Shown one piece after another: positions 24,242 through 30,779 of a DNA stretch of 64,000 nucleotides (positions are counted from its first letter, which is position 1; each line of letters starts with the position of its first letter). The DNA comes from Salinibacter sp. 10B (GTDB lineage: Bacteria > Bacteroidota > Rhodothermia > Rhodothermales > Salinibacteraceae). The position numbers and the translations under genes were made by a program. The stretch is taken from the NCBI RefSeq assembly GCF_002954405.1, contig NZ_MQWC01000004.1, forward strand, positions 3,350,668 through 3,414,667. Reading direction: 5' to 3'. The notes beneath the pieces are model-generated. The model did not search any database and was not told the origin of the DNA. It saw only the letters and a program-made list of their open reading frames with translations.

Positions 24242-25264
24242 CTAGAGGGCCACCTGGAGGCGGGCTGTGAAGAAGCCATCCCCTACGTCGTCGGTGGCCG
24301 CCTGGTAGTTGACGAGGAAGCGCAGCAGGGAGGAGTAGTCGTAGTTGTAGCCCAGCGTAAGTTGGTCCTCGGGCGTTGCCTGGATCGGCGTGTCGGGATC
24401 GTACTGATCGAAGCGAATCAGCACCTGCTGGTTCTCGCTCACGTCCGCCCCGGCGGCGACGTAAAAGCCAAAGGGGTTGGCCGTGTCCGCTCCTCCGTTC
24501 GGGTCAAGCCAGGCCGTATCGAGTTCTCCGGCGAGCAGCCAGCGGTCAATGTCCAGACGAGCATCGGCGCCGAAGAGCACGCGCGTGCCGGAAAAAGCGG
24601 GACGACCGAGGCCGGAGAGGGGGGTGTCGTCGTCGATGCTGTAGGCCGCATTGGTGCCAAGCTCCAGTTCACCAGTACTCACAGGCAGGCGCCCGCTCAG
24701 ACGTCCCACGTACAAGAGCGGATCGCTGGACGGAGGTTGGAGGCCGCTTGTGCCGTTGAAGGCACCCACCGTTGCGGTCAGGCGATCCGGGACCAGCGTT
24801 CGTGCAAGAGACACTCCCGCCTGCCGATTCGGGGCCACGTTGTTCACGACGCGAGCCCGTTCTGCGAAGAGGAGATTGGGACGTGGCGTGAGGATTTCGG
24901 CACTGAACGGCGTTTTGAAGATGCCGGCCGTCATCCGAAGTTGGTCCGTCAACGGAAGACGAGCAAAGGCATCGAGCAGAATAGAAGAGGAGGCAAAGTC
25001 CGTCTGCACGGCGTACTGAAGAGACTCAGCGTTTCCGCCGAAGCGGAGACGTGTAGAGCGAACGCGAAAGCCATCATTGTCGGCCCGGCCCAGATAGGCA
25101 TCCGTTTGCAGAAGGCCGCCGATCGTTAGGGCATCGCCGCCCCCCACCGACACCGTTCCGGCCTCGTTGGGCGACTGAGCGGAGGCAAGTTGCACCCCCC
25201 CCACTGCCACGAAAAGCGCGATGAGGAGGAAAGGGCGGCTGATGCCGGAGAAGGAAGCTCGCAT
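24242..25264 (-). CDS. outer-membrane porin (OprP/OprO-like)
   Basis: 340-residue exported beta-barrel. The signal peptide from the ATG at 25264 ends near QLASAQ. LTIGGLLQTDAYLG, FRVRSTRLRFGG, YAVQTDFASSS and IFKTPFSAEILTPRPNLLFAE follow the pattern of phosphate-selective porins, and the barrel ends FFTARLQVAL. An in-frame start ten codons upstream is less likely. It is a lone gene, convergent with the SLBB gene and divergent from the exchanger at 25487. Substrate specificity (phosphate, pyrophosphate or a general anion) is not shown by the sequence. Confidence 0.85.
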   Translation of the reverse strand: MRASFSGISRPFLLIALFVAVGGVQLASAQSPNEAGTVSVGGGDALTIGGLLQTDAYLGRADNDGFRVRSTRLRFGGNAESLQYAVQTDFASSSILLDAFARLPLTDQLRMTAGIFKTPFSAEILTPRPNLLFAERARVVNNVAPNRQAGVSLARTLVPDRLTATVGAFNGTSGLQPPSSDPLLYVGRLSGRLPVSTGELELGTNAAYSIDDDTPLSGLGRPAFSGTRVLFGADARLDIDRWLLAGELDTAWLDPNGGADTANPFGFYVAAGADVSENQQVLIRFDQYDPDTPIQATPEDQLTLGYNYDYSSLLRFLVNYQAATDDVGDGFFTARLQVAL

Positions 25265-25486
25265 TGAGACTGCGCGTGGAAATGAACAAGACAAACGCGA
25301 GGCGAGGATATTCTTCAGTCCAGAAGTATGATAGGAGCGTGCAATTGGAGAGTTTAGAGAGGCACGTTACGGGATGGTAATTGGGCATTTTCTTTTCGGG
25401 AAGAGACGGGACCGGGGGCGAACCCGTAGAAGGGCGTTCCGTAGTGAGGTTGGGATCTATATTTCCGGCGTCACTCACACAGGCAT

Positions 25487-26428
25487 ATGTTCATCAATTT
25501 TCTTCAGATTACCGGTGGATTCATTGTGCTGACGGCCGCCGCGGAGGCCCTCGTGTTCGGGGCATCATCGCTTGCGCGCCGCGTGGGGTTGTCTCCACTG
25601 GTCATTGGGTTGACAGTCGTGTCGATTGGCACGAGCCTGCCGGAACTGGTGGTGGGCGTCGAGGCAGCCCTTCGCGGCAGTGGCGACATTGCTCTTGGCA
25701 ACGTAGTGGGATCGAATATCGGGAATATTGCTCTTATTCTAGGGGTGGCGGCCCTCGCGAAACCGCTCGTCGTGCAGGCCCAGGTGGTGCGAATTGACAG
25801 CCCCATCCTGGTCGTCGTGTCCCTTATGTTCGTTGGCCTTATGCTGGATGGACAGCTCGGTCGTCTCGACGGGGGACTGCTCGTAGGGGGGATCGTGGCC
25901 TACGTGGCTTACAACCTGTGGGTGGCCCAGAAGGCATCGAGTACGGTCCGGGAAGAGTTTGACCAAGGCATTCCGGATCGGCACTCCGCGATCATGGATG
26001 CCGGGTTGCTCGCCCTCGGGATTGGGGGACTTGTCGTGGGGGCGCGCGTCATGGTTGCGGGCGCCGTTTCGATCGCTCAGACGCTGGGCGTGGGGCCCAT
26101 TGTGGTGGGGCTCACCATCGTTGCCGTTGGCACGAGTCTGCCGGAGCTTGCCACCTCGGTGGTGGCGGCGCGACGGGGAGCAGGAGACATTGCGGTTGGC
26201 AACGCGGTGGGATCCAGTATCTTCAACATTCTCGGGATTCTCGGGATCACCATCCTTGTGCAGCCGCTCTCTACCGACACCCTTGGGTGGATCGATGCGG
26301 GGGTGATGGTGGGAGTGGCCGTTGTTGTTTTGCCGCTCTTTCGCTCCAACTGGACTCTCAGCCGGGCCGAGGGGGCCTTTTTATTGATCTGTTATTTGGG
26401 CTACATTGGGTCCCTTGTGATGGGGTAG
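25487..26428 (+). CDS. calcium/sodium antiporter (CaCA family, YrbG-like)
   Basis: Inner-membrane cation exchanger with about ten membrane segments and two inverted alpha repeats. The first holds [16 protein letters not shown] and [17 protein letters not shown]; the second holds [17 protein letters not shown] and [17 protein letters not shown]. The GTSLPE and GNxxGSNxxN motifs form the ion-binding core. 313 residues. A second, divergent CaCA gene follows 283 bases downstream, so the pair may act together in Ca2+/Na+ homeostasis in saline surroundings. Confidence 0.93.
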
Positions 26429-26711
26429 GTTTGGGGACGAGACGGAAGGGGATCCCAGCACTTGGTGTTCAAGTACATCTCTCGTGAACTCCGTTCCGGT
26501 TCGCCGGTTCGTGCTCTGGCTTCGAACGGGACGCGTCGGGACGTTCCGACGATCGTGCCGAGTCGATCAGCATACAATTCTACTCTGCGCAATCGCACGG
26601 GACTATGCTTGAAGGGACAGGTCTCCGACCCGCTGTTGAGGATGAGCGTGCCGTGCGGTTGTCTTCTGTCATTGCGTCTCCGTTGCTTTCGTCTCGTCGC
26701 TCCACGCACAC

Positions 26712-27770
26712 ATGAGTCCCTTCGTGCAGGTTTCGGCCTACTTCGGCCTCGCCCTTATCTCGACGGCTGTCGTGTGGAAAGGGAGCGAATGGCTTGAATC
26801 GTCCAGCGAGCGGTTGTCCGTGTACTATGAGCTTCCTCCCCTCGTGCAGGGAGCTGTCGTGCTGGCGATAGGGTCTAGCTTTCCGGAGCTGTCTACGGCC
26901 GTGCTGGCAACGCTTCTTCATGGCGAGTTTGAGCTCGGGGTGGCCGCAATTGTGGGGTCAGCGCTCTTCAACGTTCTGATGATTCCGGCGCTTGCGGGCA
27001 TCTGGTCCGACGAGGATCTCGTCTCGACGCGCGATCTGGTTTACAAGGAGGTACAGTTTTACCTGATCTCGATTGCGGCTCTCCTCCTGATGTTCTCGTT
27101 TGCGGTGATCTACAATCCAGTGGAGAACGCCAGTGGGGCAATCGCAGGAGAGGTGACACGAGGGCTCGTGCTGTTTCCCCTCGTGCTCTATTTGTTTTAC
27201 GTATACCTGCAGTATCAGGATACGATGGATCACACGGCCGAGGGGGATCCCGCGTCGGTCGCACCAGGGAGACAGTGGGGCGTTCTGCTTGCTGCGCTGC
27301 TCGTCATTCTCGTGGGCGTAGAGGGGCTTGTCCGGGCGGCGATCGGACTTGGAGAAGTCTTTGGCACCCCGAGCTTTCTCTGGGGCATCACGGTCGTTGC
27401 GGCTGGCACCTCTGTGCCGGACGCCTTCGTGAGTGTCCGGGCGGCCCGGGCTGGAAACGCGGTGACGAGTGTGGCCAATGTGCTGGGGAGCAACGTCTTT
27501 GATCTATTAGTGTGCATTCCGGCCGGTGTACTGGTAGCCGGCACGGCCGTCGTCAACTACTCCGTGAGTGCCCCCATGATGGGGGTCCTTACCCTCGCTA
27601 CCCTGATCGTCTTTTTGTTGATGCGAACCCACATGGTGCTGACGACAGCCGAAGCCTGGGGGCTCATTGCCATCTATCTGCTCTTTGTCGTCTGGATGAG
27701 CGTGGAAACCTTTGGAGCTGTCAACTTGCTGCCCAATTTGCCACCGGCGACATCCATGCCCAGCCCCTAA
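26712..27770 (+). CDS. divergent sodium/calcium exchanger family protein
   Basis: 352-residue membrane protein with the CaCA inverted-repeat layout but altered motifs. The first repeat has AIGSSFPELSTAV and AAIVGSALFNVLMIP, and the second has AAGTSVPDAFVSV and VANVLGSNVFDLLVCIP. The Glu of the first repeat is kept, while the second has Asp in GTSVPD. A loop of about 60 residues separates the halves (around 155-200). Ion choice may differ from the neighbour at 25487. I see no third gene linking the pair to a regulator. Confidence 0.88.
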   Translation: MSPFVQVSAYFGLALISTAVVWKGSEWLESSSERLSVYYELPPLVQGAVVLAIGSSFPELSTAVLATLLHGEFELGVAAIVGSALFNVLMIPALAGIWSDEDLVSTRDLVYKEVQFYLISIAALLLMFSFAVIYNPVENASGAIAGEVTRGLVLFPLVLYLFYVYLQYQDTMDHTAEGDPASVAPGRQWGVLLAALLVILVGVEGLVRAAIGLGEVFGTPSFLWGITVVAAGTSVPDAFVSVRAARAGNAVTSVANVLGSNVFDLLVCIPAGVLVAGTAVVNYSVSAPMMGVLTLATLIVFLLMRTHMVLTTAEAWGLIAIYLLFVVWMSVETFGAVNLLPNLPPATSMPSP

Positions 27771-27911
27771 TACATCCAGCCGGCGAGGGCATGGCGATCC
27801 CTGATGGACGGGGGACATCTGCCGTCGTTTGGGGGCATGCGCTTGTGACTGTCCGACGCGGACGTTAGTCTTTAAACGGAGATGAAATTAAAAATTCACT
27901 GAGGCCCTTCT

Positions 27912-28310
27912 ATGGATCCCCCGTTTCAAACCAAGCTCAGCCGACGCGAGCGTCAGATTATGGAGGCCGTCTACCGGCTTGGGGAGGCGAGCGTTGCGGC
28001 CGTTCAGGACGAGCTCCCGGACGATCCCGACTATCACGCCGTCCGGGTGGCGATGGCGAAGCTAGAAGACAAAGGGCACCTCTGTCATCGCCGGGAGGGG
28101 CGTCGATACATCTACAAACCTGAAATTCCCCGCGAAGAGGCCAAACGGTCGGCACTGGGTCATCTGGTACGCACCTACTTTTCCGGGGCCCCCTCCGAGG
28201 TGCTCCTGACGCTTCTGAACATGTCGGCTGAGGATTTAAGCACCGACGACATTGCTGAATTGGAGGCCTGGATCGAGCAGGCAAAAGACGAAGGAACGGC
28301 GCATGACTGA
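27912..28310 (+). CDS. BlaI/MecI/CopY-family transcriptional repressor
   Basis: 132-residue winged-helix repressor. LSRRERQIMEAVYRLGEASVA and VRVAMAKLEDKGHLCHRREGRRYIY form the DNA-binding domain, and the C-terminal helices (LVRTYFSGAPSEVLLTLL) dimerise and carry the region that in BlaI/MecI is cut during induction. Its stop overlaps the start of the M56 protease gene by eight bases (ATGACTGA, 28303-28310). This is the standard blaI-blaR1 layout, so the protein is probably inactivated by its partner. I did not find a clear TACA/TGTA dyad upstream, only an AT-rich stretch around 27875-27900. Confidence 0.92.
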   Translation: MDPPFQTKLSRRERQIMEAVYRLGEASVAAVQDELPDDPDYHAVRVAMAKLEDKGHLCHRREGRRYIYKPEIPREEAKRSALGHLVRTYFSGAPSEVLLTLLNMSAEDLSTDDIAELEAWIEQAKDEGTAHD

Positions 28311-28668
28311 CATTGCTCTCCGGGTTGGGGCATACATTCTACTTCACGGGACGGTGGTGCTTGTCTGTGCGTGGGGCCTCGTGTGGATGAACCGCGATGG
28401 ACCTGCGGCCCTCACCCATGCAGTGTGGACGGCGGCCTTTACGGTGTTGCTGCTGCTGCCGGTGGGAGGATACGTGGTGCCGGGGTGGACCGTTGATCTG
28501 ACGATGGAGTCGTCGCCTGGACACATGGGGACGTTCACTGACGGTCCCCCGTGGCGGGAGGGGAGGAGCCGCTTCCAGGCGGCACGGCCCGGTCAACGAC
28601 GGTCGACCAGAGTCGCTGGCAGGGGCTGCTTCAGTGGGGCGCGCGCTGGGGGGCACCGGCGTTTTTGA
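28303..28668 (+). pseudogene. 5' part of the M56 (BlaR1-like) protease gene, out of frame with the rest
   Basis: This frame starts inside the end of blaI and encodes the first two membrane helices of an M56 protein (ALRVGAYILLHGTVVLVCAW and a second helix ending LLLLPVGGYVVPGW). After about residue 83 the translation becomes Arg-rich junk, while the family-like sequence continues in another frame. The switch point must follow the TGA at 28539-28541 of the downstream frame; the C5 run at 28546-28550 is the best candidate, since one extra C restores a single reading frame. The TGA ending this frame (28666-28668) overlaps an ATG of the downstream frame (28668), so re-initiation is conceivable. 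Confidence 0.7.
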
Positions 28669-30779
28669 TGATGTGGGCCGGCGGGGTGCTGCTGTTTCTG
28701 GGGCGGCTTGGGGTGGGAATGGTAACCCTCTGGCGTTGGCGGCGCTCGACGACCAAGCTGGCATACGACGACCTTGTGGGCACGCTCGTCGAGCAGCTCT
28801 CGCTTTCCCGCTCGGTATCGGTCCGGTGCAGTGCTCAGGCTCAGGTGCCGACGGTCTGGGGGATTTGGGCCCCTACGGTGCTACTGCCCGCGGAGGCGTC
28901 GGAGTGGTCTCGGGCGCGGCTGCGTTCCGTGTTATTGCACGAGCTTGCTCACGTAAAGCGATGGGATGCCCTGACGCACATTGTGAGCCGGATCGCTCGG
29001 GCCTTCTTTTGGCCCAACCCGATGGTCTGGCGGGCCGCTGCGCAGGCGACGGCCGCTCAGGAGCGGGCCTGTGATGATACGGTGCTTCTTCGGGGTGGGG
29101 TGGCATCGTGGGAGTATGCGGAGCAACTGTTGGCTGTAACGAAGACGCTGCGACGAGGACCCGTTCCCGTGGACGCGGTAGCCCTCGATGCAGGACGCCA
29201 GTTTAAGTCCCGCATGCGGGCACTTCTGAAATCCTCCGCCCCGCGCCGGAGATTGACCCGCCGAGAGATCGGCGGGGTGTGCAGCGTCGGGGGACTGTTC
29301 CTTGTGGCGGTCTCGCTCGTGCAGGTGGGCCCTGAGCAGCAGGAGCCCAATCGTGGGCAGCAGTACTGGCTGGAGGCGGAGCGCGGCGCGTTGCCGGCGG
29401 CCTTTGCAACCGAATCCGACGAGGGGGCGTCGGAACGGGCGTACGTGACGGTGCGGGAGGGGGGCGCGCTTGATCGGCCGCCCCAAGAGGAGCGCGGGGC
29501 GTACGTGTTCGACGTGGAGGAGGCGGGGCGGCACCTCATATGGGCGCGCGTACGGGTACCCTCCGATGCACATAACTCCCTCTGGGTTCGCATGGACAGC
29601 ACCCGATGGATCCGGTGGAACGGAATTGAACAGGGAGAACAGTGGCATTGGGTCCAGGTGCGTGATGCCGACCAGGAGGGACAGCCCGTGGCCTTCGAGT
29701 TGTCGGAAGGGCAGCACCGGCTCCAGCTCGGGCCGCGGGAAGATCAGATTGACATTGACCAGCTCGTCGTGACGAACGATTGGCAGTATCGCCCGCCGAC
29801 AACGGATTCGGACGTCTCGTCCGACCGTGCGCCAACGCAGGTGTGGTTGGAAGCCGAAGAGGGGCAGCTCGAATTGCCCCTTCGCGTCGGGCATAGTCCA
29901 CAGGCGTCCGGGTGGCAGCACATTGTGGCACAACCCGAAGAGCAGCGTCTCGATGCTCCCCCCGCGAACGGGCGAGTGTCGTACTCCTTCACCGTTCCCC
30001 GCTCGGGCACCTATCGCATATGGGGGCGCATCGTCGCCGCCTCAACGGGCAGCGACTCCTTCTGGATTCGCATGGATGAGGGGCGCTGGATTCGATGGAA
30101 TGAGATTCGGCCGGGGGAGCGGTGGCACTGGGACCAGGTGCACGATGCTGATGCAGAAAACGCTCCGGTCCAGTTTGATTTGGCAGCGGGGACACATCAG
30201 CTGACGGTGGCCTATCGGGAGCAGCACGCGAAGCTGGACCGATTGCTTATTACCTCCAGCCCCACGTACCGCCCGCGCGGGACCGGGCGTCGTCCCGAAG
30301 GGTCGACTCCGTTCTCCCAGATGCTCCCCCTTTCGAAGGCCACCCTCACGTCTCCAATGGTGCGTGCCGACTCCGCTGCACCCGTTTCTGGGATTGGCGT
30401 ACCAGATGGCCCTGGGAATGATGCCTACAACAGCGGCCCCGGAGCGGCCACCTGGACGTTCACAGTACCGCGGGAGGGCGAGTACGTGTTTTGGGGAGAG
30501 GTGCGCGCGCCTGCGCCCAACGACAATTCATTCTATGTCTCTGTGGACGGGGGCAAAGACATTGCCTGGCACATCCCCGCACCGAATGCAACGACTGAGG
30601 GATGGACCTGGGACCCCGTCAGTCGTCTCAAAGAGGGGGAGCACACCGATCCCGTGATCTTTTCGCTAGAAGCCGGTACTCACCAACTTCGCCTCCGAAA
30701 CCGTGAGGACGGCACCCGGCTCCGTCGGCTGCGTGTAACCAACCGCTCGGCGACCGGTCTCCGGGTCGTTCGTCCGTAA
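28551..30779 (+). CDS. M56 family (BlaR1-like) membrane metalloprotease with three C-terminal carbohydrate-binding-like repeats
   Basis: Main frame of the BlaR1-like protein. Numbered from the GTG at 28551, it has a membrane helix at about 34-61, the gluzincin motif HELAHVKRW with zinc ligands H130 and H134, a likely third ligand in ERACDD (about 171), and a last helix at 241-259. Instead of a penicillin-binding sensor there are three repeats (about 273-409, 431-570, 588-731) of jelly-roll, CBM-like type, each with LEAE or similar, a Y/W-F/I-W-R strand pair (TYRIWGRI), SFWIRMDEGRWIRWN, WHWDQV and GTHQL. The overall design is repressor plus membrane protease plus external sensor. The ligand is unknown; see the frameshift note for its 5' end. 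Confidence 0.85.
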   Translation: MAGGEEPLPGGTARSTTVDQSRWQGLLQWGARWGAPAFLMMWAGGVLLFLGRLGVGMVTLWRWRRSTTKLAYDDLVGTLVEQLSLSRSVSVRCSAQAQVPTVWGIWAPTVLLPAEASEWSRARLRSVLLHELAHVKRWDALTHIVSRIARAFFWPNPMVWRAAAQATAAQERACDDTVLLRGGVASWEYAEQLLAVTKTLRRGPVPVDAVALDAGRQFKSRMRALLKSSAPRRRLTRREIGGVCSVGGLFLVAVSLVQVGPEQQEPNRGQQYWLEAERGALPAAFATESDEGASERAYVTVREGGALDRPPQEERGAYVFDVEEAGRHLIWARVRVPSDAHNSLWVRMDSTRWIRWNGIEQGEQWHWVQVRDADQEGQPVAFELSEGQHRLQLGPREDQIDIDQLVVTNDWQYRPPTTDSDVSSDRAPTQVWLEAEEGQLELPLRVGHSPQASGWQHIVAQPEEQRLDAPPANGRVSYSFTVPRSGTYRIWGRIVAASTGSDSFWIRMDEGRWIRWNEIRPGERWHWDQVHDADAENAPVQFDLAAGTHQLTVAYREQHAKLDRLLITSSPTYRPRGTGRRPEGSTPFSQMLPLSKATLTSPMVRADSAAPVSGIGVPDGPGNDAYNSGPGAATWTFTVPREGEYVFWGEVRAPAPNDNSFYVSVDGGKDIAWHIPAPNATTEGWTWDPVSRLKEGEHTDPVIFSLEAGTHQLRLRNREDGTRLRRLRVTNRSATGLRVVRP

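Follow-up and report, generated by a model that had tools for sequence, protein, structure and literature searches.

A BlaI/M56 repressor-protease pair with a carbohydrate-binding-type tail in Salinibacter and its relatives

BlaR1 and MecR1 are known above all as an antibiotic alarm. The accessible part of PMC9834060 describes the loop between the second and third transmembrane helices (TM2-TM3 loop, or EL1) and the TM helices of BlaR1 as carrying the signal, and links EL1 to signalling. The same part of that paper describes a Mycobacterium tuberculosis BlaR1 homologue without a penicillin sensor as lacking an equivalent sensor domain. Here, we analyse a 64,000-nucleotide stretch of the Salinibacter sp. 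10B genome (contig NZ_MQWC01000004.1, positions 3,350,668 to 3,414,667; hereafter "the window"), which holds a BlaI-family repressor gene overlapping a gene for an M56 membrane protease. Like the M. tuberculosis homologue, as far as that source describes it, the pair is M56/BlaI-type and has no penicillin-binding sensor, but in the window a large tail of three carbohydrate-binding-type repeats stands in its place.

On balance, we lean towards reading the pair as a BlaR1-type switch that has been re-purposed for a carbohydrate signal and that releases envelope and glycan-degradation genes; the gene arrangement, the domain families, the fold of repeat 2, the operator-like sites with their positions and the conservation among relatives are shown, and the ligand, the membrane topology, the signalling, the binding of BlaI and its cleavage are parts that we infer. 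A carbohydrate rather than an antibiotic is probably sensed, because the outer part consists of three sugar-binding-type domains and because operator-like sites point to a sugar-splitting enzyme and to outer-membrane proteins. If this is true, M56/BlaI would be a general device with a swappable sensor, and repressor proteolysis would join the known bacterial modes of polysaccharide sensing.

Polysaccharide utilisation is regulated by hybrid two-component systems, by SusR and by anti-sigma/TonB systems. The proposed switch would resemble these in coupling external or periplasmic glycan to the transcription of glycan-degrading genes, but it would act by proteolytic removal of a repressor rather than by phosphorylation or sigma-factor release. 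Published BlaI regulons, of three and of one operons, share self-regulation, inverted-repeat operators and BlaR1 genes in the operon with the locus described here. In the portions available to us, they are discussed as a beta-lactam response, with no carbohydrate-binding sensor. We found nothing in the literature that combines BlaI, M56 and a glycoside hydrolase (GH), in a search that lay outside bioRxiv and most subscription papers. Among the matches listed for M56, BlaR1, BlaI or apiosidase, mostly as titles and abstracts, we recognised no carbohydrate-binding M56 sensor. Those for BlaI, M56 and the outer membrane were a proteolysis review and a Porphyromonas methylome paper, neither of them apparently on this topic from the parts available.

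The gene pair and its three-repeat tail

The repressor is a member of the BlaI family, as PF03965 scores 86.9 bits against a cut-off of 22.6 and is matched over positions 1-115 of 115. The protein is 88% identical in amino acids to its counterpart in L025, a locus of the Salinivenus metagenome-assembled genome G008, with a ratio of nonsynonymous to synonymous substitution rates (dN/dS) of about 0.08. The downstream protein belongs to family M56 (PF05569, E 4.1e-28, 98.8 bits against a cut-off of 31), with the match at residues 38-224 of the open reading frame (ORF) beginning at 28551. The original prediction described a layout like that of blaI-blaR1. Both the pair and the overlap are real, but the overlapping frame starts at the ATG at 28303, which gives 8 nt of overlap with the blaI stop codon (TGA, 28308-28310), and not at 28551.

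The pair resembles BlaR1/BlaI and MecR1/MecI in the overlap of the repressor gene with the M56 gene and in the HExxH and ExxxD motifs. As in BlaR1 and MecR1, there are four hydrophobic helices (in the intact protein of L025), a TM2-TM3 loop and a C-terminal tail after the last helix; hydropathy places TM3 at residues 37-58 and TM4 at residues 239-257 of the 28551 ORF. As with BlaR1/BlaI, a palindromic operator-like site lies directly before blaI. By contrast, the tail consists of three modules like those of carbohydrate-binding module (CBM) families 35 and 6, not of a penicillin-binding domain, and the host is Gram-negative. No penicillin-binding or class-D lactamase-like Pfam domain occurs in the M56 ORF at E-values up to 0.1, in agreement with the original prediction. 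The pair belongs to the BlaR1/BlaI kind, and by its domains it is not a beta-lactam receptor.

The tail begins C-terminal to TM4 and consists of three tandem repeats of 145-148 residues each. Their number and arrangement had been foreseen, with a somewhat shorter length of about 140 residues. W-x-W, G-x-H-x-L and R-E blocks are common to all three. The longer blocks that had been named as shared each occur in two repeats: W-I-R-W-N and W-H-W in repeats 1 and 2 (DIAWH and WTW stand in repeat 3 instead), and G-T-H-Q-L in repeats 2 and 3 (GQHRL in repeat 1). Repeat 3 matches the family profile with an E-value of 1.2e-47, the profile including repeat 3 itself.

Structure modelling covered repeat 2 of the three. 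Its AlphaFold2 model, made from an 8-row alignment, has a predicted local distance difference test score (pLDDT) of 90.1 and a predicted template modelling score (pTM) of 0.86. The top solved structures in Foldseek are mostly CBM35 and CBM6 domains (best E 1.2e-7; 126 matches with E <=0.001). VIA-align gives a Z-score of 16.7 to the CBM35 of the GH26 mannanase 3zm8, over 125 of 148 residues and at 2.2 A, and of 15.1 to the GH115 glucuronidase 4zmh. As modelled, repeat 2 matches the CBM35/CBM6/GH115-type carbohydrate-binding fold. The fold search, which had been set beforehand as the refutation check, places it among carbohydrate-binding folds.

A sequence trace of the same superfamily is present in the whole protein, which scores 29.2 bits with PF17829 (GH115 C-terminal domain) against a cut-off of 24.1. 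Repeat 2 alone falls below the Pfam cut-offs, both for PF17829 (16.2 against 24.1) and for CBM_6 (PF03422; 14.3 against 28.9). PF17829 matches 10 of 15 repeats at E-values up to 1, the best being 1.2e-12. The likeness to CBM35, CBM6 and PF17829 domains is one of fold (best Z 14-16.7) and of this whole-protein trace; unlike those domains, the modules here form the tail of a membrane protease and do not sit on an enzyme.

Of the 114 genomes of the order, 12 have matches with E <=1e-8 to a profile of 15 repeats (A2), at most 34 candidates being scored per genome. In five of the 12, the module lies in an M56 frame (hereafter M56-CBM): the window's genome (G000), G008, G013, G033 and G055. In the other seven, by-eye comparison finds that the module's coordinates do not coincide with M56 matches, among those listed. 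Among the carriers of the module are a glucuronoyl esterase in G027 (PF22244, 1.2e-71) and a pair of GDSL acylhydrolases that have secretion tails, one of the pair in G032. In a sample of 394 genomes from the phylum, with at most nine candidates scored per genome, the module is matched with E <=1e-22 in nine, of which G000 and G033 have M56 carriers, as far as the frames could be read. The remaining seven lack HExxH in at least one frame read each, and some of these frames are cut by locus ends. In a tree of 34 M56 sequences, which include fragments and repeated copies of a single gene, that of G055 branches apart from the rest.

Operator-like sites and candidate targets

The promoters of blaI and of a barrel gene in L025, the window's own blaI promoter and an intergenic stretch of G013 have in common an 18-bp palindrome, RTGAA-N8-TTCAY, whose core is A/T. 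It was found by aligning relatives and was then confirmed by pattern search; an automated palindrome finder returned nothing in the window's stretch upstream of blaI. The pattern matches once in the window, versus no match in 100 shuffles.

Across whole genomes, there are two exact sites in G000 (4.75 Mb), three in G008 and two in G013, versus none in the reversed control of each. All seven lie upstream of blaI, of the barrel gene, or of a GH gene or its remnant, and exact copies precede the barrel gene in both G008 and G013. Four of the seven defined the pattern, and three were found with it, namely the GH140 site, the G008 remnant and the second G013 barrel.

In G000, the second exact site occupies -31 to -14 relative to the gene for a 470-aa secreted apiosidase, which we take to be a member of GH140. 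The protein matches PF13204 with an E-value of 1.6e-128 (429.3 bits against a cut-off of 26.5) and PDB entry 8t9w, "Apiosidase", with an E-value of 7.2e-135. Relatives of this apiosidase occur in five of the 114 genomes, three of which carry M56-CBM (G000, G013 and G033, the match in G033 being only 33% identical).

A further candidate target is a TolC-type gene (PF02321). One-mismatch sites number nine in G008, versus two in the reversed control. Allowing one mismatch adds two sites in G000 and six in G008; this same gene follows one of the former and two of the latter. With E <=1e-60, the gene is present in three of 19 genomes tested (G000, G008 and G033), that is, in three of five with M56-CBM and in none of 14 without it. 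The candidate targets (the GH140 apiosidase, the TolC-type protein and an outer-membrane-type barrel) are unlike those of BlaR1/BlaI.

We treated the one-mismatch sites in L128, L129, L130 and L133 as chance matches, as they are in coding sequence or beside genes without a clear link. In G008, another one-mismatch site, GTGAAGAGATAAGTTCAT (L131:2899-2916), lies about 260 bp before a TonB-dependent-receptor-type frame at a contig end, and an apparent LacI-type regulator is encoded further upstream. Upstream of the TolC homologue of G033 there are many short repeats of the type GTCAGCCGTCAGC (L136:380-1150).

In the mechanism that we propose, BlaI would bind the 18-bp palindrome before its own operon and before a few distant genes and repress them. 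Its targets would be the secreted GH140-type apiosidase, the TolC-type outer-membrane factor and, in relatives, the outer-membrane barrel. The co-transcribed M56 protein would lie in the inner membrane, with the zinc protease in the cytosol and the three CBM35/CBM6-like modules in the periplasm. An oligosaccharide bound by the modules would alter the protease via the TM2-TM3 loop and the helices, by analogy with BlaR1, and the protease would then cut BlaI, so that the glycan-degrading and envelope genes are turned on. GH140 enzymes release apiose from plant pectin, and apiose-bearing pectin would therefore be our guess at the ligand.

A recurrent barrel gene beside blaI and M56

Beside blaI-M56, G008, G055 and G013 (which has two copies) encode an exported-looking protein of about 437 aa with a conserved N-terminal domain. 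The original prediction proposed searching genomes for M56 proteins with the same repeats and listing the genes beside them. This search gave four relatives, three of which have the ~437-aa partner beside M56-CBM; no sugar gene lies beside the pair in the window. The partner is absent beside the pair in two of the five M56-CBM loci, those of G033 and the window.

The partner is a probable outer-membrane barrel, a label that rests on weak DUF481 matches in three of 21 members (best 5.3e-5; the L025 member scores 17.1 bits against a cut-off of 21.1). A profile search of the Protein Data Bank with the barrel alignment gave a best E-value of 0.49, and a single-sequence AlphaFold2 model was unusable (pLDDT 36.4). 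The alignment (A5) holds 21 of 24 frames; it omits L094, L096 and L097, each of which is either truncated by a contig end or part of a long fused frame. No barrel relatives were found in a scan of viral contigs.

With E <=1e-20, barrel-related genes occur in 73 of the 114 genomes. We compared the context of the barrel gene in 20 regions, which were chosen with known match coordinates in view and not at random. In seven of these loci (L084-L090), from four genomes and two genera, the three genes are packed tightly in the order blaI-M56-barrel or blaI-barrel-M56. G054 contributes one such locus, and G029, G043 and G053, which are of one genus, contribute two apiece. They represent about three types, and are therefore not seven independent cases. 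Their M56 frames are 617-967 aa long and have tails of unknown type, with no domain above the Pfam cut-off in the tails of the six scanned (all but L089). The other 13 loci have the barrel gene without blaI or M56 in the stretch examined, and some of these stretches stop at a contig end.

The exact operator does not occur in the seven cassettes, and the exact A/T-core site is found in none of the 13 loci with a stand-alone barrel gene. Palindromes of three types, judged by eye, are repeated or paired upstream of six of the seven cassettes printed: GTGTTAAAAAATTAACAC in L086 and alike in L088 and L090, TACGACGATCATCGTA in L085 and alike in L087, and CTACTATTGCAATAGTAG in L084.

The cassette of blaI, M56 and barrel may prove the more important find. 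A bolder reading, which we regard as doubtful and offer tentatively, is that these three are the components of one signalling system across the envelope, which recurs in Rhodothermales and whose periplasmic sensors are interchangeable. The barrel would be part of the input as well as a target, admitting or docking a ligand for the M56 tail and so leading to cleavage of BlaI. The CBM version would control the apiosidase and the TolC-type channel, which would make it a proteolysis-based polysaccharide-utilisation regulator. The recurrent barrel gene gives a starting point for learning the role of M56 proteins with unknown tails.

In the window, homology to L025 in blastn ends at 27763 and resumes at 27865, with a short tract in place of the barrel gene (Table 1). 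The window's genome has lost the barrel gene.

Table 1. Coordinates of the features discussed, as positions in the window
Feature	Position	Strand	Remarks
Replacement tract	27764..27864	.	101 bp without blastn match; L025 has 1554 bp with the barrel gene there
Candidate BlaI operator ATGAAATTAAAAATTCAC	27882..27899	.	-30 to -13 from the blaI ATG; site kept in L025
BlaI/MecI-family repressor, 132 aa	27912..28310	+	PF03965 Penicillinase_R, E 1.5e-24, full profile 1-115
M56 gene, 5' part: start codon, TM1, TM2	28303..28668	+	Own frame, open to 28668
Frameshift region in TM2-TM3 loop (BlaR1 EL1 equivalent)	28544..28590	+	Net 49 nt fewer than L025
Main M56 frame: TM3, gluzincin domain, TM4, periplasmic tail (predicted)	28551..30779	+	742 aa from GTG
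HELAH zinc motif (HExxH)	28938-28952	+	BlaR1 motif definition from the accessible part of PMC9834060
ERACD (ExxxD), third zinc-ligand motif	29061-29075	+	Definition from the accessible part of PMC9834060
Carbohydrate-binding-type repeat 1	29355..29792 (aa 269-414)	+	42% identical to repeat 2
Carbohydrate-binding-type repeat 2	29832..30275 (aa 428-575)	+	AlphaFold2 model
Carbohydrate-binding-type repeat 3, most divergent	30312..30746 (aa 588-732)	+	33% identical to repeat 2

The interrupted protease frame and alternative readings

The M56 gene of the window is split between two frames. The start of the protein in the 28303 frame, MTDIALRVGAYILLHGTVVLV, aligns with that of the intact L025 protein, MTDVALRVGAYIFLHGTVILV, and the alignment to the orthologue extends to about 28543, the frame remaining open until 28668. 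Near 28544-28590 the window falls short of L025 by a net 49 nt, and we therefore place the change of frame there. Downstream of the shift there is no stop within 742 codons. The GTG at 28551 was rejected as the true start of the M56 gene because alignment of the orthologues puts it mid-gene.

The orthologues are intact, single open frames of 842 aa in G008 (L025; 74% identical to the window) and 841 aa in G013 (L030; 59%). In L025, to judge by hydropathy, a single polypeptide has TM1-TM3 N-terminal and TM4 C-terminal to its protease part. To judge from these frames, the intact version of the system is in G008 and G013. Relative to L025, the M56 gene has a dN/dS of about 0.18 in its TM1-TM2 part, 0.09 in its core and 0.13-0.18 in the repeats; these ratios are rough (dS is about 0.9-1.6) and reflect long-term selection only, being silent on recent loss.

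The sugar-responsive version of BlaR1 that was originally predicted is partly supported. Its glycan part draws support from the fold, from the other proteins that carry the module and from the apiosidase site, and the idea of a glycan response is better supported than before because of the fold of repeat 2 and because the sole other exact site in G000 precedes a glycoside hydrolase. However, the protease in the window is not one intact frame.

This split is among several results that weigh against the reading that we favour. TM1-TM2 and TM3-TM4 of the window are in separate frames and not in one polypeptide. The break may be a true mutation or a sequence error, and the copy may accordingly be decaying or mis-sequenced. 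The domains of insect-toxin Cry proteins also match repeat 2 in VIA-align (Z 13-14), and therefore the fold alone is no proof of sugar binding. In the window, the pair is flanked by two sodium/calcium exchanger genes and a hydantoinase gene, with no sugar genes. A search for barrel relatives in the window's whole genome found none (E <=0.001, and also E <=1e-20).

The operator evidence also has its exceptions. G008 keeps the orthologous operator and a start remnant, but has lost the GH140 gene. No operator was found upstream of the G013 apiosidase, which is 72% identical to that of the window's genome, and G046 and G032 have the apiosidase without M56-CBM. One-mismatch sites in G000 number four, versus three in the reversed control; because this hardly exceeds the control, the TolC site rests on its sharing with G008. 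No operator was recognised at the TolC homologue of G033. The M56-CBM loci fetched for G033 (L028) and G055 (L029) do not contain the exact operator and have other palindromes before blaI; the operator is thus shown in Salinibacteraceae only.

Of the alternatives to a carbohydrate-responsive switch, the one that survives best is that the pair is a dead or dying remnant in the window's organism. The M56 gene would be a pseudogene, BlaI would repress constitutively or be irrelevant, and the sensor idea would apply to the relatives only. A frameshift in the signalling-loop region and the loss of the barrel gene are what such decay would leave. On the other hand, 742 codons after the shift are free of stops, dN/dS is low in all parts (a long-term average only), the operator is retained at both blaI and the GH140 gene, and the shift could be a sequence error. 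We see this alternative as quite possible, if somewhat improbable.

A second alternative, which we think unlikely, is an envelope-integrity switch. The modules would bind a glycan of the cell's own periplasm or outer membrane (peptidoglycan, lipopolysaccharide or extracellular polysaccharide), the barrel and TolC would be an envelope-stress response, and the GH140 site would be a lineage-specific addition. This explanation would account for the outer-membrane-type barrel as the recurrent partner, also of differently tailed M56 proteins, and for the TolC factor as a candidate target in both congeners; the barrel's weak DUF481 match fits it as well. However, the other proteins scanned that carry the module are GDSL acylhydrolases and a secreted glucuronoyl esterase, and an apiosidase behind an exact operator fits a nutrient glycan better.

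The repeats could also be a structural or protein-protein spacer, for example one that docks to the outer-membrane barrel, and not a ligand sensor. Jelly rolls can bind proteins, and the barrel gene forms cassettes with M56 genes of several tail types. But enzymes active on glycans carry modules of this family, a GH140 gene is a candidate target and no barrel gene adjoins the pair in two of the five M56-CBM loci, and we consider a spacer rather improbable.

Last, an ordinary BlaR1-type sensor of beta-lactams or cell-wall antibiotics, with incidental adhesion-type domains, is most improbable, and we rejected this identity: the NCBIfam model blaR1_generic does match the M56 protein (E 2e-19), but with 69.4 bits against a cut-off of 400 and over residues 37-257 only, Pfam gives no such sensor domain, and there is no beta-lactamase among the scanned candidate targets.

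We now note some additional properties of the locus and its genome. The two exchanger genes adjoin one another (25487-27770) immediately 5' of blaI, and the gene order is the same in L025. A Porin_O_P-type gene lies nearby on the minus strand (24242-25294; PF07396, 5.9e-12). Two further M56 proteins are encoded in the window's genome (L001 and L003). One has a long tail rich in D, S, L, E and R, and the tail of the other has two segments that look TonB-C-like; M56 tails in this genome look highly swappable.

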